A stretch of 35,346 nt of DNA from Acidobacteriota bacterium (GTDB lineage: Bacteria; Acidobacteriota; Terriglobia; Bryobacterales; Bryobacteraceae). Shown here in pieces: positions 24,359 through 35,346 of the stretch. The stretch covers positions 1 through 35,346 of the forward strand of contig JACOTZ010000092.1 in the NCBI GenBank assembly GCA_016178155.1. Reading direction: 5' to 3'. The position numbers and the translations under genes are program-made. How positions within the stretch are numbered: position 1 is the stretch's first letter; each line of letters starts with the position of its first letter. The notes beneath the pieces are model-generated. The model saw only the letters and a program-made list of their open reading frames with translations, had not been told where the DNA came from and searched no databases.

Positions 24359-24835
24359 TCAGCGATTCCCCGCGTCCGGCTGCCCGATGTCCGCCACGAT
24401 TTTGTACGATCCGTCCTTCTGCCGCCGCCAGGTGGTCTGGTATTTGCCCGTCCGTTCCACGATCTTGCCCTCCCGATCAGCGACACGGCTGCGCCATGTT
24501 CCGTAGGTGAAGCCGAGTTCGCCGTCGGACGAGATCATCCCGCCCCGCGGGTTCCAGCGCAGCGTGGGCTTGCGGCCGCCGAAGACTTTCTGGTAGTGGT
24601 CGCGCGCTTCGGCCTTGGTGCGCAGCACGGGACGATCGGGCGCGAAGACCACGACGTCGTCGGCCCAGTGCGCCATCCAGCCCTCGACCCCGCGCTCCGC
24701 AAAATCGCGGCAGAACCGCGCATCGAGCTCCATCAGCTTGCGAACCCCGGCGCCCGGCGCGGCGGCAAGGTCGGGGACGCAGCCGTCCTGGGCCGGCAGC
24801 ACTACCGCCGCGAGCAGTCCAACCAGCAGCTTCAT
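24359..24835 (-). CDS. DUF4440/SnoaL-like secreted protein
   Basis: A 158-residue protein with an N-terminal signal (MKLLVGLLAAVVLPAQ) and an NTF2/SnoaL-like cone fold: FCRDFAERGVEGWMAHWADD, then a short strand with VFAPDRPVLRTKAEARDHY, then LGFTYGTWRS and GKYQTTWRRQKDGSYKIVAD. Such proteins are common and mostly of unknown function. The ATG overlaps the argR stop by four bases (ATGA), so it is the last member of the arginine operon by position, though nothing links it to arginine metabolism. Confidence 0.8.
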   Translation of the reverse strand: MKLLVGLLAAVVLPAQDGCVPDLAAAPGAGVRKLMELDARFCRDFAERGVEGWMAHWADDVVVFAPDRPVLRTKAEARDHYQKVFGGRKPTLRWNPRGGMISSDGELGFTYGTWRSRVADREGKIVERTGKYQTTWRRQKDGSYKIVADIGQPDAGNR

Positions 24836-25266
24836 ACGGCAACATACTCCATGAATTTATTGTGCAGACGTACGGCCGTCGGTGTGTCCGGCGCGATCAC
24901 CAGCACCGTGTCGTCGCCGGCGATCGTCCCCACCACCTCCGGCCACTCTTCGTGATCGATGGCGCTCGCGAGCGAGCTCGCGTGCCCGGGCAGCGTCTTC
25001 ACGACGACGAGATTTTGCGCGGTGCGCGCACCGGTCATGGCCTCAGCGGCGATGGTCGCGAGCGACGGCCCCGGAGCGACGCGGCTCACCTGCGCGTAGC
25101 CGTCCGGCGTTTTCACCAGCCCCAGCTCGCGGATGTCGCGCGAGAGCGTTACCTGCGTGGCCTCCACGCCCATGGCCTTCAGCTCCCGCAGGAGCTGCTC
25201 CTGCGTGCGCACCCTGGCTTTCCGGATCAGACGCAGAATAAGGTCCTGGCGGTAAGCTTTGTTCAT
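24832..25266 (-). CDS. argR: Arginine repressor ArgR
   Basis: A 144-residue hexameric arginine-responsive regulator. The N-terminal winged helix has TQVTLSRDIRELGLVKT as recognition region. The C-terminal arginine-binding oligomerisation domain ends with GTIAGDDTVLVIA, whose GTIAGDDT motif is nearly invariant in the family. The start at 25266 overlaps the argGH stop (ATGA); a longer frame upstream is only the shadow of argGH. Two ARG boxes before argF make this operon an expected target, so ArgR should repress its own synthesis when arginine is plentiful. Confidence 0.94.
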   Translation of the reverse strand: MNKAYRQDLILRLIRKARVRTQEQLLRELKAMGVEATQVTLSRDIRELGLVKTPDGYAQVSRVAPGPSLATIAAEAMTGARTAQNLVVVKTLPGHASSLASAIDHEEWPEVVGTIAGDDTVLVIAPDTPTAVRLHNKFMEYVAV

Positions 25267-27770
25267 CGCATCGAAGCGAGCCGCGCCTCGGCCTCGGCGA
25301 GCGCCTTGCCGACCCATTCCGGCCCCGTGCCGCCGGGCAGCTCGCGCGTCTTCATGCCCTCGCAGGGATCGAGCAGCCGGGCCATCTCTGGCGTGAACTC
25401 CGGGGCGAACGCGGCGAGCTCCTCGGGCGTCCATTGCGCGGGCGACTTCCCCCCCTTCACGCTCTCGAGCACCAGCTTGCCGACAAGCTGATGCGCGCGG
25501 TGAAACGGCACCCCCGCGCGCGCGAGCGCCTCGGCGAGGTCCGTCGCCACAACCCAGCTCTCCTGCGCCGCGAGCGCCGTCTTCGAGCAGTGGAGCGACG
25601 CCGAGTCGACCACCGCAGCGGCCATGCGCAGCGAGCCGCGAAGCTGGTCCACCGCATCGAACAGCGGCTCCCAGCCCTCCTGCAGGTCGCGGTTGTAGGT
25701 CATGGGCAGGCCCTTCGCCGTCATCAACAACGAGGTCAGGCTGCCGAAGACCCGCCCGCACTTGCCGCGGATCAGCTCGAGCGAGTCGGGATTCTTCTTC
25801 TGCGGCATCAGGCTCGAGCCGCTGGTCACGGCATCGCTCAGCTCCAGAAAACCGAACTCCTCGCTCGAGTAGAGAATCCAGTCCTCGGCCAGGCGGCTGA
25901 GATGAAGCATCGCGATCGAGGCGGCGGATAGAAAGTCGAGCTCGAAGTCGCGGTCGCCGGCGGCGTCCATGCTGTTGCGCGTCACCGCCGTGAAGCCGAG
26001 CTCGCGCGCGATCGCCTCGCGGTCGAAAGGGAAGCCGCTGCCGGCGAGCGCCCCCGAGCCCAGCGGCATGACGTCGGCTCCCGCGCGCGCCTGCTCCAGG
26101 CGCTCGCGGTCGCGCGCGAACATCTCGAAATACGCCAGCAGGTAGTGCGGCCACAGCACCGCCTGCGCCCGCCGCAGGTGCGTATAGCCGGGCAGCACCG
26201 CGTCCGGGTAACGGCGGGCGAGCCGCAGCAGCGCCTCGAGCAGCGCGGCCAGCTCGGCCCCGGCTGCGTCGATCTCCTCAAGCAGCCATAGCCGCACGTC
26301 GAGCGAGACCTGCTCGTTGCGGCTGCGCCCGGTGTGGATCTTGTCGGCGAGCCCGCCCACCTTCTCCCGGAGCTTGCGGATGACCAGCGTGTGCACGTCT
26401 TCATCGGCCGCGCCTTCAAAGAACGATGAGTGCTCCGCCTCCGCGCTAAGCTTCGCAAAGGCGGACCCCAGCCGCTCCACTTCCGCGGCGCTCAGGACGC
26501 CGGCCCGCCCGAGCGCGCGCGCAAACGCAACGGAGCCCCGGATGTCGGCGAAGACCAGGCGCCGGTCGAAGTGCAGCGATCCCGAGAAGCGCTCGAAGAC
26601 CTCGGAGGGACCGCTCTCGAAACGTCCGCCCCAGAGCTTCATTCGCCCTGCGTCATGGCCCGCACCTTGATTGAGCGAGTAGAGCGAGTTCGGCGACCGG
26701 CGGCTCACCGGCTCGAGATTGCCCTTGAACAGCCGCAGCGTGACCTCGCCGCTGACCGGCTGGTTGGCGGCGTCGAAAAACGCGTCCAGCGCCTCGCGCA
26801 GCGGCGTGAACCAGAAGCCGTTGTACACCAGCTCCGCATAGTCGAGCGCCAGCTTCTGCTTGTAGTGCAGGATGTTTTTATCCAGCGCCAGCGCCTCGAG
26901 CTCGCGATGCGCCGCCAGGATCAGAGTCCCTCCGGGCGTCTCGTAACACCCGCGCGATTTCATCCCCACGAACCGGTTCTCCACCAGGTCGATGCGGCCG
27001 ATGCCGTGCTCGCCGCCGAGCCGGTTCAGCTCTTCGAGCAGACCGACAGCCGAAAGCTTGCGCTGGCCGTTGAGGGAGACCGGCGTCCCCCGGTCGAAGC
27101 CGATCGTGACCTCGGCCGGCGTGTTGGGCGCGTCCTTGGGACTCCGGGTCAGCATCCAGACGTCGTCAGGCGCGGCGTTGGCGGGATCTTCGAGCGCGCC
27201 GCCCTCGTGCGAGATGTGCCAGATGTTGCGGTCGCGGCTGTAGATCTTGGTTGTGCTTTGAGCGATGGGCACGTTGTGCCGGGCCGCGTATTCAATGGCG
27301 TCCTCGCGCGACCGGATGTCCCACTCGCGCCAGGGCGCGATGACCGCGAGCTGCGGCGCCAGCGCCTTGTAGGTCAGCTCGAAGCGCACCTGGTCATTGC
27401 CTTTGCCGGTGCAGCCGTGGGCGACCGCGTCGCAGCCGCTGGCCAGCGCCACCTCGACCTGCTTTTTCGCGAGCAGCGGGCGCGCGATCGAGGTGCCCAG
27501 CAGGTACTTGTGCTCGTAGACGGCGCCTGAGCGCACCAGCCGCCAGAGGTAATCGGTGACGAACTCCTCGCGCATGTCGGCGATGTGCACGTCGCTGGCG
27601 CCGGTCTTGAGCGCCTTCTCGCGCAGGCCCTCGAGCTCGTCGCCGCCCTGGCCGATGTCGCCGCAGACCGCGACCACCTCGCAGCCGTAATTCTCTTTGA
27701 GCCACGGAATGATGATGGACGTGTCCAACCCGCCCGAGTAGGCGAGGGCCACTTTTTTCGGTTTGTTCAT
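25263..27770 (-). CDS. argGH: Argininosuccinate synthase-lyase fusion (ArgG-ArgH)
   Basis: One continuous 835-residue frame. Residues 1-376 are argininosuccinate synthase: AYSGGLDTS (ATP pyrophosphatase loop), GDIGQGGDEL, HGCTGKGNDQVRFEL, APWREWDI. Residues 377-835 are argininosuccinate lyase, starting at MKLWGGRFESG, with HTGRSRNEQ and the fumarase-family signature GSSLMPQKKNPDSLE. Together they convert citrulline and aspartate, via argininosuccinate, to arginine and fumarate. The synthase part is some 20-25 residues shorter than usual and lacks its C-terminal tail; at the joint (AGRMKLWGG) the usual AGFIK-like end of ArgG runs straight into the MKLWGGRF start of ArgH. The Met at 377 could also be an internal start, with only a weak AGGG ahead. 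It lies 23 bases after argF and overlaps argR. Confidence 0.93.
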   Translation of the reverse strand: MNKPKKVALAYSGGLDTSIIIPWLKENYGCEVVAVCGDIGQGGDELEGLREKALKTGASDVHIADMREEFVTDYLWRLVRSGAVYEHKYLLGTSIARPLLAKKQVEVALASGCDAVAHGCTGKGNDQVRFELTYKALAPQLAVIAPWREWDIRSREDAIEYAARHNVPIAQSTTKIYSRDRNIWHISHEGGALEDPANAAPDDVWMLTRSPKDAPNTPAEVTIGFDRGTPVSLNGQRKLSAVGLLEELNRLGGEHGIGRIDLVENRFVGMKSRGCYETPGGTLILAAHRELEALALDKNILHYKQKLALDYAELVYNGFWFTPLREALDAFFDAANQPVSGEVTLRLFKGNLEPVSRRSPNSLYSLNQGAGHDAGRMKLWGGRFESGPSEVFERFSGSLHFDRRLVFADIRGSVAFARALGRAGVLSAAEVERLGSAFAKLSAEAEHSSFFEGAADEDVHTLVIRKLREKVGGLADKIHTGRSRNEQVSLDVRLWLLEEIDAAGAELAALLEALLRLARRYPDAVLPGYTHLRRAQAVLWPHYLLAYFEMFARDRERLEQARAGADVMPLGSGALAGSGFPFDREAIARELGFTAVTRNSMDAAGDRDFELDFLSAASIAMLHLSRLAEDWILYSSEEFGFLELSDAVTSGSSLMPQKKNPDSLELIRGKCGRVFGSLTSLLMTAKGLPMTYNRDLQEGWEPLFDAVDQLRGSLRMAAAVVDSASLHCSKTALAAQESWVVATDLAEALARAGVPFHRAHQLVGKLVLESVKGGKSPAQWTPEELAAFAPEFTPEMARLLDPCEGMKTRELPGGTGPEWVGKALAEAEARLASMR

Positions 27771-27793: not shown

Positions 27794-28729
27794 TCAGCCG
27801 AGCAGCATCAGCAGCAGCGCTTTCTGCGTGTGCAGCCGGTTCTCGGCCTGGTCGTAAACCACCGAGTTCGGATGCTCCATGATCTCGTCGGTCGTTTCCT
27901 GGCCGCGCCGGGCGGGAAGACAGTGCATGAAAACCGCCTCGGAGCGGGCCTTGGCGAACAGGCCGCTATTGATCTGGTACGGCTGAAAAATACGGCAGCG
28001 GTCCGGGAGTTCGTTCTCCTGTCCCATGCTGGCCCAGACGTCGGTATAGACCGCGTGCGCGCCCGTGACGGCTTCCGCCGCTTCATTCGTGAAATGAAGG
28101 GTTCCGCCGTTCTCGGCCGCCAGCCGCCGGCCCTCGGCCACGATCTCCGGCCGCGCTTCGTACCCGAGCGGCGTCGCCAGCCAGAAATGCATGCCGAGCC
28201 GTGCCGCGTCGAGCATCAGCGAGTGCGCGACGTTGTTGCCGTCACCGACAAACGCCAGCTTGAGCCCGGCGAGCTTGCCGAACTTCTCTTTGAGCGTGAA
28301 GATGTCGGCGAGCGCCTGGCAGGGATGATAGAGATCGCTGAGGGCGTTGATCACCGGCACGGTCGACCACTGCGCCAGTTCGTCGATGGTTTCCTGGCGC
28401 AAGGTCCGGGCCACGATGCCCTGGGTCCAGCGCTCGATATTGCGCGCAACGTCCTTCACGGGCTCGCGCTCCGCGATCGGACCGACGCAGGTAACTGAGT
28501 CGCCGCCGAGCTGCTTAATCGCGAGCTCGAAGGTCAGGCGCGTGCGCAGCGACGGTTTCTCGAACAGCAGGCTGAGGTAGCGGCCATTCAGCGCCTTGAC
28601 GTAGCGCTCCGGCGTGCGCTTGACCTTGTGCGTCAGGTCGAGGACAGAGTTGAGCTCATCGACCGACAGGTCGAGATCCTGTGTCAGGTCCTGGGCCTGC
28701 CAGGCGGGTCTGGGTGAAGTTGTCGCCAT
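27794..28729 (-). CDS. argF: Ornithine carbamoyltransferase
   Basis: This 311-residue enzyme makes citrulline from ornithine and carbamoyl phosphate. Visible motifs are the carbamoyl-phosphate loop FEKPSLRTRLTFE, HPCQALADI, the amino-acid-binding AFVGDGNNVAHS region, and HCLPARRGQE near the C-terminus. It is first in the arginine operon and supplies citrulline to the fusion enzyme encoded next. The ATG at 28729 lies just downstream of two ARG boxes. Its first 50 codons and whole control region occur again near the right edge of the window. Confidence 0.95.
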   Translation of the reverse strand: MATTSPRPAWQAQDLTQDLDLSVDELNSVLDLTHKVKRTPERYVKALNGRYLSLLFEKPSLRTRLTFELAIKQLGGDSVTCVGPIAEREPVKDVARNIERWTQGIVARTLRQETIDELAQWSTVPVINALSDLYHPCQALADIFTLKEKFGKLAGLKLAFVGDGNNVAHSLMLDAARLGMHFWLATPLGYEARPEIVAEGRRLAAENGGTLHFTNEAAEAVTGAHAVYTDVWASMGQENELPDRCRIFQPYQINSGLFAKARSEAVFMHCLPARRGQETTDEIMEHPNSVVYDQAENRLHTQKALLLMLLG

Positions 28730-28741
28730 CGCGTACCGCCC

Positions 28742-28778
28742 TATGAATCTTTATTCAGTCTAATGAATAATCACACAT
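28742..28778 (-). promoter_or_regulatory. Tandem ARG boxes (ArgR operator) of argF
   Basis: Two 18-base sites are separated by one base. The first (28742-28759) is TATGAATCTTTATTCAGT, a full TGAAT-N4-ATTCA palindrome. The second (28761-28778) is TAATGAATAATCACACAT, close to the enterobacterial ARG box AATGAATAATTACACATA. Their half-sites start 20 bases apart, about two helical turns, as ArgR hexamers need. The pair ends 13 bases before the argF start codon and overlaps the likely promoter. Confidence 0.88.
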
Positions 28779-28796
28779 TTCGGGGGCGGGATGCAA
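28767..28796 (-). promoter_or_regulatory. Candidate argF promoter
   Basis: On the minus strand TTGCAT (28791-28796), an 18-base spacer and GATTAT (28767-28772) form a plausible but weak promoter. The same two elements with the same spacing survive in the displaced copy near 34.6 kb. The -10 element lies inside the upstream ARG box, so ArgR binding would block it. Confidence 0.5.
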
Positions 28797-28899
28797 GTGC
28801 GTCCGGGGGCGGGCGGCAGCCCGTCGCCGGATCGCTTCCGTTACTGCCTAAGACTTTCGCTTCCGCGGGATGTCGTTCATAATGGGAGAGAAGGAAGTC

Positions 28900-29094
28900 A
28901 TGGAAGCCAGACTCGGGGCGCAGACTGAATACGAATTCCAGGGGCGCCGAGTATCGGCCCTGGGCTTGAGGCTGCGCGCAATACGCGAACAGATCGAGGT
29001 GGCGGCTGCGCGCGGTGAGACTAAACTTCTGAACCGTGAAGAGCTGGATCGCGAGCTGGAAAATCTAAGGTCTGATGATCCGGACCTTCATTGA
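28900..29094 (+). CDS. Putative antitoxin of a PIN-domain pair
   Basis: A 64-residue, strongly charged, mostly helical protein (LRLRAIREQIEVAAARG, NREELDRELENLRSDDPD). I do not recognise its family. It is called antitoxin because it directly precedes and overlaps, by 20 bases, a PIN-domain toxin gene. The start at 28900 is chosen because AAGGAAG sits just ahead; an in-frame ATG 30 bases upstream (28870) is the alternative. Confidence 0.68.
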   Translation: MEARLGAQTEYEFQGRRVSALGLRLRAIREQIEVAAARGETKLLNREELDRELENLRSDDPDLH

Positions 29095-29494
29095 TTCGGG
29101 CGTTCTCATCGCTGCTGCGCGAGCTGAACATGCCGAGTCCGAGCCGGCTCTTCGATTGCTGGAAGACCCAGGCCGCCGGATGCTTACGAGCATGTTCGTC
29201 CGGCTGGAGGTTTACCCGAAAACTGCCTTTCACGCGTACGCCCTCCAGAGGGCGTTTCTGAACGAATTTTTCATGGACCCTTCGCTGGAATGGGCCAGCG
29301 ATCTAAGTGGGCTTGTCAATTTGGCCATCAGCGAATCAGAGCGGCATGGTCTTGCCGCTATGGACGCACTACATGCCGCAGCCGCCCTGCTGCTCGGGGC
29401 AGAGGAGTTCGTCACCACCGAGAAGCCCGGCAAGCCAATCTATCGCGCCGATGGATTCCACGTTCTGCACATCTCGACTTTCCAATCGACCTAA
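29075..29494 (+). CDS. PIN-domain toxin (VapC-like)
   Basis: A 139-residue PIN-domain protein, typically an Mg-dependent ribonuclease cutting tRNA or rRNA. Acidic residues are in the expected places: FIDSGVLIAA (Asp 7), FVRLEVYP (Glu 45) and AAMDALHAAAALLLGA (Asp 97). The last site reads FVTTEKPG, with Glu where Asp is more common. It overlaps the small gene before it, which fits a toxin-antitoxin operon. A hairpin with a CGTTGCT/AGCAACG stem follows the stop. Confidence 0.82.
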   Translation: MIRTFIDSGVLIAAARAEHAESEPALRLLEDPGRRMLTSMFVRLEVYPKTAFHAYALQRAFLNEFFMDPSLEWASDLSGLVNLAISESERHGLAAMDALHAAAALLLGAEEFVTTEKPGKPIYRADGFHVLHISTFQST

Positions 29495-29508
29495 TTTCGA
29501 GCAGGATT

Positions 29509-29544
29509 CGTTGCTGGGACTCGGCTCGTGCTCCCGAAGCAACG
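29509..29544 (+). terminator. Hairpin after the PIN toxin gene
   Basis: The arms CGTTGCT and AGCAACG, with an inner GGGA/TCCC pairing, start 15 bases after the toxin stop. There is no T-run, so it is a possible weak terminator or an RNA-stabilising end. Confidence 0.35.
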
Positions 29545-29672
29545 TCAGGCTCCGGAGAACGGTGTTTTCGGGTGGGAGCCGCCAAATTTCGACATGGCGT
29601 GGCGCATGGCAGGCCGCGTACGGTTCGAAGCAGCCTATTCGCCAGAGGACGTTGTCTACGAACGATTGATGG

Positions 29673-29881
29673 ATGACCCTGCAATTCGGTGAACTCATCC
29701 TGATTCGAATGCAGTTTCACCAGACGAATGGAGCCAAAGTTCGTCCGGCAGCCAGGAAGGGAGCCATCGACAGTACAAGCATCCCGGCAAAAAGGGGCGT
29801 GTGACCATCGCCGGCCATCCTTCGATGGACCTGGACTCGAAGACGCAGAATAGTATCCTGAAACAAGCAGCAGGGCTGAAA
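29673..29881 (+). pseudogene. Degraded hicA toxin gene
   Basis: The last 40 or so codons before the hicB-like start read EGSHRQYKHPGKKGRVTIAG and then a typical HicA C-terminus (NSILKQAAGLK). That includes the active-site GSH motif and the family's usual tail. The expected N-terminal half is spread over other phases: KFVRQPGR appears in a neighbouring frame just upstream, so at least one frameshift has occurred. There is no stop in the HicA frame before the hicB start; one extra A near 29881 would explain the loss of a normal overlapping stop. The start coordinate is approximate. Confidence 0.65.
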
Positions 29882-30089
29882 ATGAGATATGCCGTTCTGT
29901 TTGAAAAGACCGAGGCCGGCTACAGCGCATGTGCCGGATCTGCCTGGATGCGTTGCTGCCGGAGCTACGATCGAGGAAACAACTGAGCTGATTCGCGGAG
30001 CCCTCCGAATGCACCTGGCTGGCATGATAGAGGACGGACAGCCTATTCCGGAACCGAAGACCATCGCGGAATACATCGTCACCGCCTAA
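29882..30089 (+). pseudogene. Frameshifted hicB antitoxin gene
   Basis: The first codons read MRYAVLFEKTEAGYSA, the normal start of HicB. The sequence then changes phase near 29929 and continues HVPDLPGCVAAGATIEETTE, followed by IRGALRMHLAGMIEDGQPIPEP, the normal rest of HicB, to a stop at 30089. A loss of two bases or gain of one at the joint explains it. As sequenced, the first frame ends after about 35 residues. It directly follows the hicA remnant, in the order hicA-hicB, opposite to the intact pair at the left edge. Confidence 0.72.
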
Positions 30090-30110
30090 ATCACCCACCA
30101 CCACTCGTCA

Positions 30111-32375
30111 TTACCGCGTAGCAACCCAAATAACTATCGGCTCACGAGCTGGAATACCCGCCACTATAGGCACGACCTCGAAAAATCCGGTACTCGTTTG
30201 CTGAAGCTGAACCTGAACCTGAGCAACTCCAGAGACGGCACCAGGCGAAGTAGTTGTGGAAAGAATACCTGCTCCCGTTGCACCCGGAGTGATTTCGACA
30301 GGTGGGCCAGGGATAATGGCTCCGGTTGCTTGCAGAGGTTCAGTTGGCCCCAAACCATTCATAAAGATTGTCACCGTGGAACCAGGCTGCGCTCCATGCG
30401 AGCAGGTGTTCAAAGTTCCATCGGCGTTGAGCGCCAGCGCATGTTGAGCGTGGCTGACGCCAATGCCACAGTAGAAATGGCCCGGTACGTCCGAGAGGAG
30501 GGCATCCGGCGAGAGAAAGACGCTTGGCTGCCGCTGAACTACAGGCAACGTTTTCCTCTCCATCAATCCTACACCCGGACTGACCACCTGCATCTCAACT
30601 GAATCCTGCCCGGCAATCTCATACGGCACCTGAATATTGATCTGCTTGCCCGAGGTGTACAGCACCGGCGCGACAATGCCATTAAATGTTATACTGACGC
30701 CTCGGAACGAGGAGGCGCTCCCGCCGGGAGGAACAGCGGCGCGAGAGGGCGCAATACGTGGACCGAAAATGCTGAGGACCTGTCCGGGAGCAACTCTTGT
30801 AAGCTGCACGTTGTCGGCAGGGTCGGTCAAGCAAGCCAGGTGCTCAGATCCAAAAAGATCAACCCTTGCAGCCATACCGTTGCTGCCGGCGGCGATCACG
30901 CTTCCGTCAGGCCTCACAGCCAGGGCCCAGGCGCTTGACGAAGTGCTCTGAGTATCAGGAAAACACGATGCGTACGTGCATGCCGGCGCCCCATAGATCA
31001 GTTGCGACGGGCTCAGGTTCGCGCCATCTGGGCTCAATCGGGCAACGAAACCGACACCCTGGGTGACAGCCGGTCCACAGCCAGCCGGGGCCGACGCGGA
31101 TAAACCCGGCAGGTCGTTCGAATTCGCCTGGCCGGTGATGTAGATATAACCATGATCTACGGTCATATCCGAAATCGCGTCTCGAACCGACCCGCCGAAA
31201 AAAGTGGACCAAATCAGGCCCGTACCGGTGGCATTGAGCTTCGTAATGTAACCGGTTGAGGGTGGCGGGTCAACCCGTCCTCTATCGGAAGGCAGGCTTG
31301 GCGGTGCTGGCGCATTGGCTACGTACACCGTCTGCAATGCCTGTGCTGTGATCGGATAATCGGCTGAGTTGGTGGTGCCCGCAATGATCGCGTTACCGGC
31401 AGCGTCTACAGCGATGCCGGCAGGCGTCGCTCCAAACGAACCGGTTACGAAAGTGGCATAGCCGAGTTTCGTCGCAGTCGGGTTGAGTTTTTCCACGAAT
31501 TGGTAGCTACACGGCAGGTAAACAATACCGCTGCCACGGCATACTTTGACTTGCGCGCTATCCTGAAACGCGCCAGGACTGGTTTGCAACGGCACGTTCC
31601 CTCCGATCGGCCCGGTCGCTGCGGCAGCGGTGTAGATATTCCCCTGCGGATCAAGTGCCAGGACTGTACCGCCGTATGCGAGTGTTGCGAACACAAGTTT
31701 GCTCAGGCCAGGGTCGAATTTCGCCAAGAAGAAGCCGTTGCCGGAGCCAGTGTCGCCAGGCGTAGTTGGAAACCCATCGGCGGATGACGTTCCCGTGAGA
31801 TACACCTCGCCCGTATTGGCGATCGCCAACGCACGGCCGGACGTCCGCGCGCTGCCGCCGAAATAGGTTGCGGATTGGACTTGTCCTTCAGGGGACAGCT
31901 TGGCAAGGAACGCCTGGCCGCCGTTCGCTGTTCCCAGTGCTGGCTGCAGTGCGCCCGAGGTTATTGGAAAATTGTTCGATAACGTGAAGCCCGCGACGTA
32001 AACGGATCCATCTGTCCCCAGCGCAATCGCCCTCGCAATATCGTCCGCGGAACCAGACAGGACGGTTTTGTAGAGCTGCGATCCGTCTGCCGAGAGCTTC
32101 GCCACGAACGCATCGGTGAGATTGCCCGTTTTGGCATCGCCCGGCGTCACCGAACCGGCAATGTAGATGTTGCCGGCGTTATCGATCCGAATCGCTCCGA
32201 GATGTGTGCCGTCGGGCTGCCGAGGAAATAGCCTCACCTGTCCGGCGAATGCCGGGATCACCAACAACGTACATAGTGCGTACTCCATAGAGGATGCGCC
32301 CCAGCGCACAAAGAAACGACGATGCGATCGATTAGACGCAGAACTCTTGTAGAGACCACTCGAACGCAGCTTCAC
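30111..32375 (-). CDS. Secreted beta-propeller (SBBP) protein with TIGR03437-type C-terminus
   Basis: A 754-residue protein. A hydrophobic signal-like segment (MEYALCTLLVIPAFA) starts at residue 30. Residues of about 45-520 are SBBP repeats, e.g. IRIDNAGNIYIAGS, IALGTDGSVYVAGFT and IAVDAAGNAIIAGTT, spaced as in a multi-bladed propeller. From about 535 to the end is the domain abundant in Solibacter-type genomes: FNGIVAPVLYTSGKQINIQV, then MNGLGPTEP. The GTG start at 32375 overlaps the stop of the upstream gene (GTGA), suggesting coupling; a start at residue 30 (32288) would give a more usual signal peptide. The role is unknown, probably surface or extracellular binding. Confidence 0.82.
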   Translation of the reverse strand: MKLRSSGLYKSSASNRSHRRFFVRWGASSMEYALCTLLVIPAFAGQVRLFPRQPDGTHLGAIRIDNAGNIYIAGSVTPGDAKTGNLTDAFVAKLSADGSQLYKTVLSGSADDIARAIALGTDGSVYVAGFTLSNNFPITSGALQPALGTANGGQAFLAKLSPEGQVQSATYFGGSARTSGRALAIANTGEVYLTGTSSADGFPTTPGDTGSGNGFFLAKFDPGLSKLVFATLAYGGTVLALDPQGNIYTAAAATGPIGGNVPLQTSPGAFQDSAQVKVCRGSGIVYLPCSYQFVEKLNPTATKLGYATFVTGSFGATPAGIAVDAAGNAIIAGTTNSADYPITAQALQTVYVANAPAPPSLPSDRGRVDPPPSTGYITKLNATGTGLIWSTFFGGSVRDAISDMTVDHGYIYITGQANSNDLPGLSASAPAGCGPAVTQGVGFVARLSPDGANLSPSQLIYGAPACTYASCFPDTQSTSSSAWALAVRPDGSVIAAGSNGMAARVDLFGSEHLACLTDPADNVQLTRVAPGQVLSIFGPRIAPSRAAVPPGGSASSFRGVSITFNGIVAPVLYTSGKQINIQVPYEIAGQDSVEMQVVSPGVGLMERKTLPVVQRQPSVFLSPDALLSDVPGHFYCGIGVSHAQHALALNADGTLNTCSHGAQPGSTVTIFMNGLGPTEPLQATGAIIPGPPVEITPGATGAGILSTTTSPGAVSGVAQVQVQLQQTSTGFFEVVPIVAGIPAREPIVIWVATR

Positions 32376-33323
32376 TGCGCTATCTCAACAGATGTTACGG
32401 AAAGCTGGATGCCCGACGAAGTCAATGCGTCATTGGGATCGGTCCGTTGCGTCCCCAAGGTGACGTATCCATTCATCCTGGATGTCGTTGCTCCGTAGTT
32501 TACACCTCCAGATGAAGTATCAACATTGAAGGCGGTTATCTGCGTCGAATATGTCGAATCCCAAACCTCAACCCTGAACTTGTACGTTGAATCCCAGCCC
32601 GCCCAGAACAGATAGCCGTTGAAGTAGTACGTCGTTCCCGTTGTCAAGTTAGTAATTTCCGTCGGGAAAAAGTATTCGGATACCAAAGGAGCGGTGCTCG
32701 GGTCCTCAGTGGCGTTCGGCGCTCGGCTCGTCCGGCACCAGGGATAGTTCGAATTGTCGTAGATGCTGCAGTTTGAGTTGGTTGACCAGTAGAAGTAAGT
32801 CTTGTCGAGAGATGCACCGGGACTCATTTGACGATAGAAGCCAAACTCTCTCTCGCCGGCCCAATCCGCCCGCTCACCAAAGTAAATGGCTTCATACATG
32901 TTCCCCGAAGACCCGCTCACCGTCCCTGAGAACGCCGCTTTCGGGCGGATACCAATGACCGCAGATTTTTGAGAACTCGTCTGGCCGTAGGAAGGTTGCC
33001 GAACTGGGTTGTTACCGGTTGCATCATATGCGGTATATACCCCTAGCGAAACCGAGTAATAGAACCACCAAGGCGGAGTAGCGGAAGAATTTCCAGCCAG
33101 TAGGGTATGTTTGCGTGTCTGCCGAACCAGTCTTGGTGTTGGGATAGGCGAACGGAGACTGTATTGAAGTCACCGTGGTACGGCTCGTGCTATTATTTAT
33201 GAAAGAAAACGCTTGGCTGTTCTCTCCGCTCATTATCGCGGTATAAGTCTGCGCAGACACGTTCACACCAAAACCCAAGAATGCAACCGTCGCCAGAGCA
33301 ATCCGAATTGGTTTCGGCTTCAT
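32372..33323 (-). pseudogene. Secreted hypothetical protein, split by a one-base frameshift
   Basis: The first part starts at 33323 with a clear signal peptide (IRIALATVAFLGFGVNVSAQ) after GGAG, and runs to about 33097 (TYPTGW). There the phase changes. The other frame goes on as NSSATPPWWFYYSVSLGVYT and leads without interruption into the frame ending at 32372. Removing one A of the AAA near the joint restores a single protein of about 316 residues, rich in aromatic, Ser and Thr residues and with paired cysteines (NSNCSIYDNSNYPWC). It has no family I recognise. As sequenced, the first frame ends at 33024. It could be a sequencing error, a real inactivation or a slippery site. Its stop overlaps the start of the propeller gene. 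Confidence 0.72.
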
Positions 33324-33364
33324 AAGTGTAATCTCCTATCGTGAGGGATCAAATATCAAACGGC

Positions 33365-34079
33365 CTATTTTGCGCGCAGAGTGAATACGGCTAGAAACTC
33401 ATCACTGCCATAAGTGGCCGGCATGGGAATCGGGGCGTTGGATAGGTAGGCGTTCCCATTCGCATCGAAGAGTTGAGCGCGGATGCTGCTCATGCCGAGA
33501 TTCCATCTCATACTCGTCGGGATAACGGTGGCTGCTTCGACCGCATTAGAGACGGTCGTTGAAGGTACAATTTGAAGGGGGATGCGCGTGCGGGTGATGC
33601 CTTCGTCGGCAAAAACGTGCAGGAGGAGGGGATCGGGAACGGCTAGCGTGCCTAGGGGAGAGCGAAGAAGCCCGTCGGCGTCGATAACCCTTAATCGCAT
33701 TCGAATTCCGACCGGCGCAGTCATGCGTACTGCAGGCATATTAACTCCAGCCTTGACTTCAATGGGTTTGGAGAACCTGCAGGAGTCTGCATAGTTGCCC
33801 GTCGCGGCAGAGCACAACCGGTACGTATATCCCGCCGTGGCAGCCACGGTAAATCGTCCGTCAGATCCCGTTCTCGTTTCGATGACCCTAACAGGCCTCG
33901 TTGAAGACGTTGCGGTTATCTTTACTTGAGACAGGGGCTGGAGCGAATCTTCGGTAAGTAGCTGCCCGGGTAAGTAGCTGCCCGACTAAAGTGACGGTTT
34001 GCGCGCTGACGTGTGGGCAGATGAACAGGAGAGTGACGGCCAGGGAGGCGCGGGATGGTGGGACACGGTTGATGAGCAT
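33365..34079 (-). pseudogene. Secreted carboxypeptidase-regulatory-like protein, broken by a 16-base duplication
   Basis: The N-terminus (start 34079) has a signal peptide (LAVTLLFICPHVSAQ) and then VTLVGQLLT. The sequence then repeats 16 bases exactly (33953-33984), shifting the phase; the original frame reaches a stop at 33888. With one repeat unit removed the protein reads VGQLLTEDSLQPLSQVKITA and continues TGSDGRFTVAATAGYTYRL, a typical CarboxypepD_reg-like or Cna_B-like beta-sandwich, to the stop at 33365 (about 232 residues). The region after the duplication is intact. It lies 41 bases before the next secreted-protein gene and is first in that set, behind a good promoter. Confidence 0.75.
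33953..33984. repeat. Perfect 16-base tandem duplication inside a coding region
   Basis: The unit GGTAAGTAGCTGCCCG occurs twice head to tail (33953-33968 and 33969-33984). As 16 is not a multiple of three, it shifts the reading frame of the minus-strand gene; deleting one unit restores it. Confidence 0.95.
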
Positions 34080-34284
34080 TCTTCGTTCTCTAGATTTAAG
34101 AGTGGTAAAAAAAATCGCTGGTGCAAGACTGTTTACGTCGAGGATTATCCAATCGTACTACAAGTTTTAGAACAAGTCAACAAAAAAAACCAGCCGTATC
34201 TTCCCCTACCAGAGAGCGCCAAGGCCGTTATTTCCCGCTAGTCCGGCATTTTTGGCAGGCGCGACGGACGGCTCCACTCGACGC
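34080..34284. other. AT-rich leader and spacer
   Basis: Upstream of the secreted-protein set. It is clearly richer in A/T than the rest of the window and includes two runs of eight A. It holds the promoter listed separately. A plus-strand open frame across it (33999-34241) starts inside the antisense of a signal peptide and has no family character, so I do not call it a gene. Confidence 0.35.
34152..34180 (-). promoter_or_regulatory. Promoter of the secreted-protein gene set
   Basis: On the minus strand TTGACT (34175-34180), exactly 17 bases and TACGAT (34152-34157) match the housekeeping consensus well. The expected transcript start lies about 65 bases before the ATG at 34079. Confidence 0.6.
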
Positions 34285-34336
34285 GGTATAAGGTTCTGGA
34301 CAACTACCCCGGTATAAGGTTCTGGACAACTACCCC
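34285..34336. repeat. Perfect 26-base tandem duplication
   Basis: Two identical 26-base units (34285-34310, 34311-34336) each begin GGTATAAGGTTCTGGACAAC. The sequence is non-coding and lies between the secreted-protein promoter and the argF copy. It could be the end of a lost mobile element or a slipped-strand duplication. Confidence 0.92.
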
Positions 34337-34371
34337 AGCGCCCGCGAGTCGGGTTGGGTGCCTTAAAAGCA

Positions 34372-34557
34372 TTACAGCAGTAGCACTTGTAGGATCTGGA
34401 GCGGACGGCGGCCATGCAGCGCCTTGCCGTAGCGCTCCGGCGTGCGCTTGACCTTGTGCGTCAGGTCGAGGACAGAGTTGAGCTCATCGACCGACAGGTC
34501 GAGATCCTGCGTCAGGTCCTGGGCCTGCCAGGCGGGTCTGGGTGAAGTTGCCGCCAT
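34372..34557 (-). pseudogene. Truncated duplicate of the argF 5' end
   Basis: The frame starts ATG at 34557 and reads MAATSPRPAWQAQDLTQDLD and on, with nearly all of the first 50 residues identical to argF in this window. Similarity ends exactly after the codons for Gly-Arg at 34408, and 11 unrelated codons follow before a stop. All catalytic parts of the enzyme are missing. If translated it would give a 61-residue peptide, but it cannot be an ornithine carbamoyltransferase. Confidence 0.88.
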
Positions 34558-34635
34558 TGCGCACCTATGAATGTTTATTCAGTCTACTGAATAATTACAC
34601 ATTCTGGGCACCGGATGCAAGTCCGCCCGGTGGGT
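34408..34635 (-). repeat. Second copy of the argF promoter-operator-start region
   Basis: About 228 bases are a diverged copy of 28580 to about 28812. The copy includes 150 bases of coding sequence, the leader (with four bases missing between start codon and operator), both ARG boxes and the -35/-10 elements. Differences are scattered single bases, several of them silent, so the copy is not brand new. The right boundary is approximate. Confidence 0.9.
34566..34602 (-). promoter_or_regulatory. ARG boxes in the displaced argF copy
   Basis: Box 1 (34566-34583) is TATGAATGTTTATTCAGT and box 2 (34585-34602) is TACTGAATAATTACACAT. Both half-site cores are kept, and box 2 is closer to the enterobacterial ARG box in its AATTACACAT part than the argF original. 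TTGCAT (34615-34620), 18 bases and AATTAT (34591-34596) would be the matching promoter. Confidence 0.8.
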
Positions 34636-34949
34636 CGAGGCGGTCCGGCGCCCAAGTTGGCAGGGCGGCGGCTCCAGGGGGCAAGGAAGCTGCACCTGCT
34701 TGGGGTCGTCTGCGGAGCGTTCCAGACAGCGAGCGGGCGCGTGAGCCAGGCGCGCAGCTCTGCTGCTTTCGAGGCTGCGCCGCCCGCGCCTGCGTCCCTG
34801 CGTTCTCGTTTGCGGCGAGACCGAACGGTGCGTCAGCGCTGCATTGTCTACAGTTCGCTGGAGACTCGGCCGCGAGACCCGGCTTGCGCGGGCGGCCTCT
34901 AGGTCGCGGCGAGCAGCGCATCAATGACTTCGGCCAGGCCGGAAAGCCT
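34636..34949. other. GC-rich stretch with no supported gene
   Basis: About 310 bases between the argF copy and the RHS-like remnant. Frames are open on both strands but show no family character. On the minus strand a short frame ends GLAEVIDALLAAT before a stop at about 34900; it looks like a natural protein end but is too short to name. It is probably more gene debris. Confidence 0.3.
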
Positions 34950-35190
34950 TTATCGCGTGCGCAGGTGTGCGGCCTCGACCAGCCGGTTCTCGATATCGTA
35001 GGTCGCGTCAGGTTCGGCATCGTCGTCAGGTTCCCGTTCGCGTCATAGCCGTAGCCCGCCGAAATAATGCGGTTCGTCGCTGTGTTGTAGTTCAGCACCA
35101 ACGGCGGCGGCGCGCTCCCTTTCGTCACCGCCGTCGCCGTCCGGTCAACCGCGATTTCTGCCTCGCCGCCCTCCGCTCCATGAGCGGCAT
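34950..35190 (-). pseudogene. RHS/YD-repeat protein fragment, frameshifted
   Basis: On the minus strand the frame reads AVDRTATAVTKGSAP, then LNYNTATNRIISAGYGYDAN and GNLTTM, which is a YD (RHS) repeat. Near 35020 the phase changes and the sequence continues DATYDIENRLVEAAHLRTR to a stop at 34950, again typical of RHS proteins. No complete RHS core or toxin tip is present. The upstream limit is uncertain because the sequence beyond about 35185 belongs to other fragments. Confidence 0.6.
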
Positions 35191-35233
35191 CACCGTCCCC
35201 AAGCCCGACGGAGCCTTCTATTTATTTCCCCGG
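35160..35233 (+). pseudogene. Fragment resembling an aminotransferase C-terminal segment
   Basis: On the plus strand about 25 codons read LAALRSMSGITVPKPDGAFY and then LFP, the motif near the C-terminal domain of class I/II PLP-dependent aminotransferases of the AspB type. Continuing codons are the antisense of the next fragment and lose the similarity. It is very short, so chance is possible, but the GAFYLFP motif is specific. Confidence 0.4.
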
Positions 35234-35346
35234 ATGGCCGGAGTCTCCGACGGCCCGAAAGCGGAGTTCGAAACGAACACCCAGTAGTCGCTCAGGCGCT
35301 CGCTGCAGCAATCCGTCCGGTTCCAGATCTCGATCCGGCTGATCGT
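35218..35346 (-). pseudogene. F5/8 type C (discoidin/fucolectin-like) domain fragment, cut by window edge
   Basis: The minus strand, entering from the right edge, reads ISRIEIWNRTDCCSERLSDY and WVFVSNSAFG, characteristic of fucolectin-like carbohydrate-binding domains. It ends at a TAG at 35218 soon after ETPAIRGN, where the similarity stops. The rest of the gene lies outside the window; it may be a truncated C-terminus rather than a dead gene. Confidence 0.55.

Follow-up and report, generated by a model that had tools for sequence, protein, structure and literature searches.

We analysed a window of 35,346 nucleotides, a whole stretch of DNA taken from the start of contig JACOTZ010000092.1 of an Acidobacteriota bacterium (Bryobacteraceae, assembly GCA_016178155.1). 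The source is an 87%-complete MAG of 477 contigs, and the contig stops 0.7 kb beyond the second of the two argF starts described here. The argF gene heads a cluster with argG, argH and argR. Its start is present twice, as copy A before the intact gene and as copy B near the contig end:

24832-25266, minus strand: argR, arginine repressor, in the same cluster as argF (PF01316 and PF02863, both matched within the final 144 residues of the ORF that ends at 24832)
27794-28729, minus strand: argF, ornithine carbamoyltransferase, intact, 311 aa (PF02729, PF00185)
28580-28729, minus strand: copy A, the first 50 codons of the intact argF, as used in the repeat, protein and divergence comparisons
28744-28777, minus strand: copy A operator, before the intact argF
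34408-34557, minus strand: copy B, truncated argF head, codons 1-50
34568-34601, minus strand: copy B operator, tandem ARG boxes TGTGTAATTATTCA-6-TGAATAAACATTCA, overlapping the -10 element
34602-34652, minus strand: copy B upstream part with the -35 element TTGCAT, 36 of 51 nt the same as in copy A

In the same cluster, argG and argH form one open frame of 835 aa (25263-27770, minus strand), in which argG lacks its C-terminal tail (IASFTMGA...GFINLIGLP...) and runs straight into argH. The tail is present in 50 of 50 related loci with adjacent argG and argH and is found nowhere else in this genome, where the frame is the only one of its kind. It may be a real fusion, damage or an assembly error.

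Positions 34408-34652 of the minus strand repeat the argF promoter, its tandem ARG boxes and the first 50 codons; the main copy lies at 28580-28828. The comparison of the window with itself gave two blocks in direct orientation, 28580-28737 against 34408-34565 (158 nt, 96%) and 28740-28828 against 34564-34652 (89 nt, 80%). The distance between these direct repeats is 5.8 kb. When the whole genome was searched with the argF start, copy B was matched with 323 bits (E 1.5e-88) and no third copy was found, no other match in the 5.6-Mb MAG exceeding 38 bits. The argF protein as query matched the intact gene, 34405-34557 (codons 1-51) and, at 29%, a single distant paralogue. Copy B ends at codon 50-51, with no homology to argF beyond, and read-through of its head gives an ORF of 61 aa (34372-34557). 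It is cut off on the side that faces the segment between the copies, while its other side is joined to DNA where the GC returns to 0.66. The initial annotation had claimed a second argF control region with both ARG boxes and the first 50 codons, next to gene debris, and the repeat, genome and protein searches bear this out, as does the debris itself. The proposed extent, 34408-34635, was right at its start and too short at its end, which lies at about 34652.

Both copies carry the promoter elements TTGCAT-17 nt-T(G/A)ATTA, overlapped in each case by two ARG boxes with 14-nt cores and centres 20 bp apart. To score them we used an operator profile from 137 argF loci drawn from Bryobacteraceae and other Acidobacteriota, of which 122 had a recognisable operator, 89 of them distinct; the window itself was excluded. 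With a profile median of 59.8, the operator of copy A scores 60.0 and that of copy B 63.2, above 69 of the 89 distinct family operators. Only three sites in the genome carry the perfect palindrome TGAATNNNNATTCA, namely both argF operators and a position between convergent gene ends (G000:C459:2337-2350; TonB-like and ispG-like by eye), which is probably not a promoter operator. No known RNA elements were found near copy B.

The two operators agree at all 20 half-site bases. They differ at three of 34 nt, all outside the half-sites (P = 0.06). It had been proposed that the half-sites were kept while other positions changed; their identity holds, but at this P value the pattern is weak, and the coding part (4/150) is better conserved than the boxes (3/34). 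Each of the three differing letters is also seen at its position in the family operators, and random three-change mutants of operator A reach the score of B with P 0.0006. As random mutants so rarely match it, the plain reading is that both promoters would have been working argF promoters while they diverged. ArgR, encoded in the same genome and cluster, could plausibly bind the operator of copy B, since its fit to the family profile exceeds that of the working operator. Copy B has the predicted elements that ArgR binding and the start of transcription need.

The substitution comparison of the two copies that the initial annotation had suggested was carried out and shows that the divergence is uneven. 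We counted 4 differences in 150 nt of coding sequence, 3 in 34 nt of operator, a 4-nt indel in the leader and 15 differences in 51 nt of upstream sequence, i.e. the heads are 97% identical and the upstream parts 71%. Three of the four coding changes alter the protein, as would be seen in a dead copy, and one is silent. Coding and upstream divergence differ 11-fold (Fisher P 3.5e-7), and the best single change point is placed 7 nt past the ATG (range -46 to +17). Such a step near the start codon is expected if a crossover took place at that point and the recipient supplied both heads. A single simple duplication would not produce it.

The DNA between and beside the copies contains the following features:

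28829-34407, no strand: foreign-looking segment of 5.58 kb, GC 0.561, tetranucleotide distance 0.20
28870-29094 and 29075-29494, plus strand: a small ORF and an overlapping PIN-domain ORF (PF01850 on the second)
29700-30089, plus strand: remnants of a HicA/HicB toxin-antitoxin system (PF07927 on a partial frame; PF15919 at 29889-30089)
30111-32375, minus strand: beta-propeller protein with a Solibacter-type C-terminal domain (PF06739, TIGR03437)
34653-35346, no strand: right flank with native-like GC and gene fragments (RHS-like, aminotransferase and F5/8C-type domain pieces)

The GC content of the segment compares with 0.643 for the remaining window and 0.65 across 12 pieces taken elsewhere in the genome, and its tetranucleotide distance with 0.023-0.084 for other 5.6-kb windows. 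A two-breakpoint fit of GC, examined after the repeats were already known, placed the borders at 28740 (28480-29020) and 34620 (34330-34660), inside both argF starts. As the segment carries a Solibacter-type domain, its donor may be a lower-GC relative rather than a distant organism. The ORF pair at 28870-29494 looks like a toxin-antitoxin pair, the pairing being inferred; it is apparently intact and adjoins the decaying HicA/HicB genes. Three further frames (33888-34079, 33365-33847 and 33024-33323) look broken.

Two exact head-to-tail duplications are present at 33953-33984 (16 nt, inside one of the broken frames) and at 34284-34335 (26 nt, 72 nt away from the cut end of copy B). They are the only ones in the window with units of 12-200 nt. 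The 26-nt repeat was considered as an IS end and rejected, because a second occurrence was found neither in this genome nor in 237 family genomes. In the right flank, which is a patchwork, the aminotransferase piece is about 90% identical to a gene on contig C445 and the F5/8C-type piece 80% to a gene on C205. We take this flank as probably native from its GC and its resemblance to genes elsewhere in the genome, over 694 nt that are full of fragments.

To compare the locus with its relatives, the operator pattern was searched in 237 genomes of one family. An operator within two mismatches was found in 60 of them, and the loci that we checked place it before argF. The operator is doubled in four genomes, this MAG and three others (G003, G005 and G154). 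In these three the second operator lies at a contig end that overlaps another contig (141 nt exactly, 311 nt with 4 mismatches and 610 nt at 96.9%). Because the contig ends overlap, each is most likely one locus split by assembly, and we rejected them as recurrent second copies. The search of related genomes for the same extra copy, also suggested beforehand, thus gave no clear internal second copy in any other of the 237. The nearest related argF is 71% identical. Self-comparison of 80 related argF loci gave repeats, which are not counted here as copies of the argF start. We also considered that the argF start is spread by a repeat family or a mobile element; with only two copies in the genome and no match to the argF start in plasmids, phages or viral contigs, it was rejected.

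On balance, we favour the reading that the locus is the scar of a foreign-DNA insertion, in which copy B would be the left-over original promoter and head of argF. DNA of foreign composition lies between the copies with its borders at the copies, and a homologous junction at one end is combined with a non-homologous one at the other. That copy B is the original is probable, judged from the composition, the side of the truncation and the fit of the operator. The exact recombination route is less certain than the general reading. According to our model, the incoming DNA would have carried a related argF promoter at one end, and this end would have recombined by homology around the start codon of argF, so that the intact gene may now use the incoming promoter (copy A). 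At the other end, a non-homologous join to codon 51 in a further copy of the chromosome would have left copy B, which consists of the original promoter and the first 50 codons. This route would account for the direct repeats, for the truncation on the segment side and for the compositional borders at the repeats. Both heads would come from the recipient, and the promoters would differ by the distance between donor and recipient. ArgR binding to copy B should persist, and a short transcript under arginine repression may start there and run into the segment, encoding a useless 61-aa peptide; copy B would be a relic and not a device. Integration of a circle carrying an argF start by a single (Campbell) crossover is disfavoured: it predicts two heads as far apart as donor and recipient, whereas they are 97% identical next to upstream parts that are 71% identical. 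Among the ideas of the initial annotation, the landing mark of a failed duplication comes nearest to the insertion scar. The landing mark may stand; the event, however, would be a foreign insertion, and the far copy is probably the original and not a displaced one.

The first alternative is a plain segmental duplication, in which the argF start was copied to 34.4 kb, its body was lost or never copied, and the low-GC DNA came to lie between by chance or later. We regard this as unlikely. There are only two copies, on the same strand of the same contig, and beside copy B the flank contains further short, diverged pieces of genes that are present elsewhere in the genome, so small pieces do get scattered here. 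However, both the 11-fold gap between coding and upstream divergence and the GC breakpoints inside both copies are left unexplained unless extra events, e.g. gene conversion, are added.

An assembly artefact, i.e. a contig that fuses two organisms or strains at a common argF start, appears quite unlikely. A MAG in this many contigs, the doubled operators at overlapping contig ends in three other family genomes and the deviating composition of the segment would all fit it. However, the two copies lie inside a single contig, and an assembler would find no common sequence at the junction 34407/34408 to mislead it. The artefact would require two independent false joins at the same gene, and copy B also differs from copy A by substitutions and an indel.

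It is very doubtful that copy B serves as a donor promoter, driving arginine-repressed expression of the genes at 30111-34079. The genes are on its strand, no terminator-like site was found at 33900-35346 and its -35 and -10 elements resemble those of copy A, so this suggestion from the initial annotation keeps some room. The next ORFs downstream, however, look like broken frames, one with the 16-nt tandem duplication, and a separate promoter-like site is present at 34180-34152. We give equally little credence to another proposal, that a foreign promoter rewired the intact cluster from argF to argR in a single step and that the abandoned native operator 5.8 kb away, which has the better fit, competes for ArgR and measurably changes arginine control.

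Least probable of all is the decoy offered by the initial annotation, here taken as a site under selection that titrates ArgR and moves the arginine set-point. Its operator is above the family median with all half-site bases present, and with only two promoter-type perfect palindromes in the genome it would double the strongest site. But such a copy is seen in no other family genome, an intact operator could reflect recent displacement alone, the sparing of the half-sites lacks significance, and among many ArgR hexamers a single additional site should have little effect. The idea has no direct support and is not needed. A literature search on ARG-box decoys yielded nothing with the terms tried.

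If the insertion scar is correct, a biosynthetic operon took the promoter of a relative in one insertion and kept the same repressor logic. This would give Acidobacteriota a small, concrete example of a promoter replaced through horizontal transfer. It would also mean that an apparent extra regulatory copy can be the abandoned original, and that composition, the side of the truncation and the divergence step jointly point to the older copy.

Several known systems resemble parts of this locus. E. coli K-12 has the duplicate genes argF and argI and, as here, two ArgR-controlled promoters for ornithine carbamoyltransferase in one genome; there both genes are whole, while the second one here is a stub of 50 codons. 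Genomic islands and prophages enter gene ends and supply a replacement piece, which leaves, as at this locus, a foreign segment between a restored intact gene and a truncated left-over in direct orientation. In contrast to such site-specific islands, no integrase, transposase or other recombinase was recognised among the ORFs scanned in 28829-34407, and the segment is bordered only by a diverged repeat of 245 nt and not by short identical att sites. The ArgR operators of E. coli consist of two 18-bp ARG boxes 3 bp apart (PMC6640053). Two palindromic boxes likewise lie over the promoter in both copies here and at 122 of the 137 family argF loci examined, with centres 20 bp apart, which is a spacing of 2 bp by the 18-bp count of E. 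coli, and in copy B there is no intact gene behind them. Homology-facilitated illegitimate recombination is a described process in natural transformation and in E. coli conjugation (PMC3240628). The event at argF is inferred from one MAG, and its likeness to that process lies in the absence of any recombinase seen and in foreign DNA placed between a homologous border and a non-homologous join.
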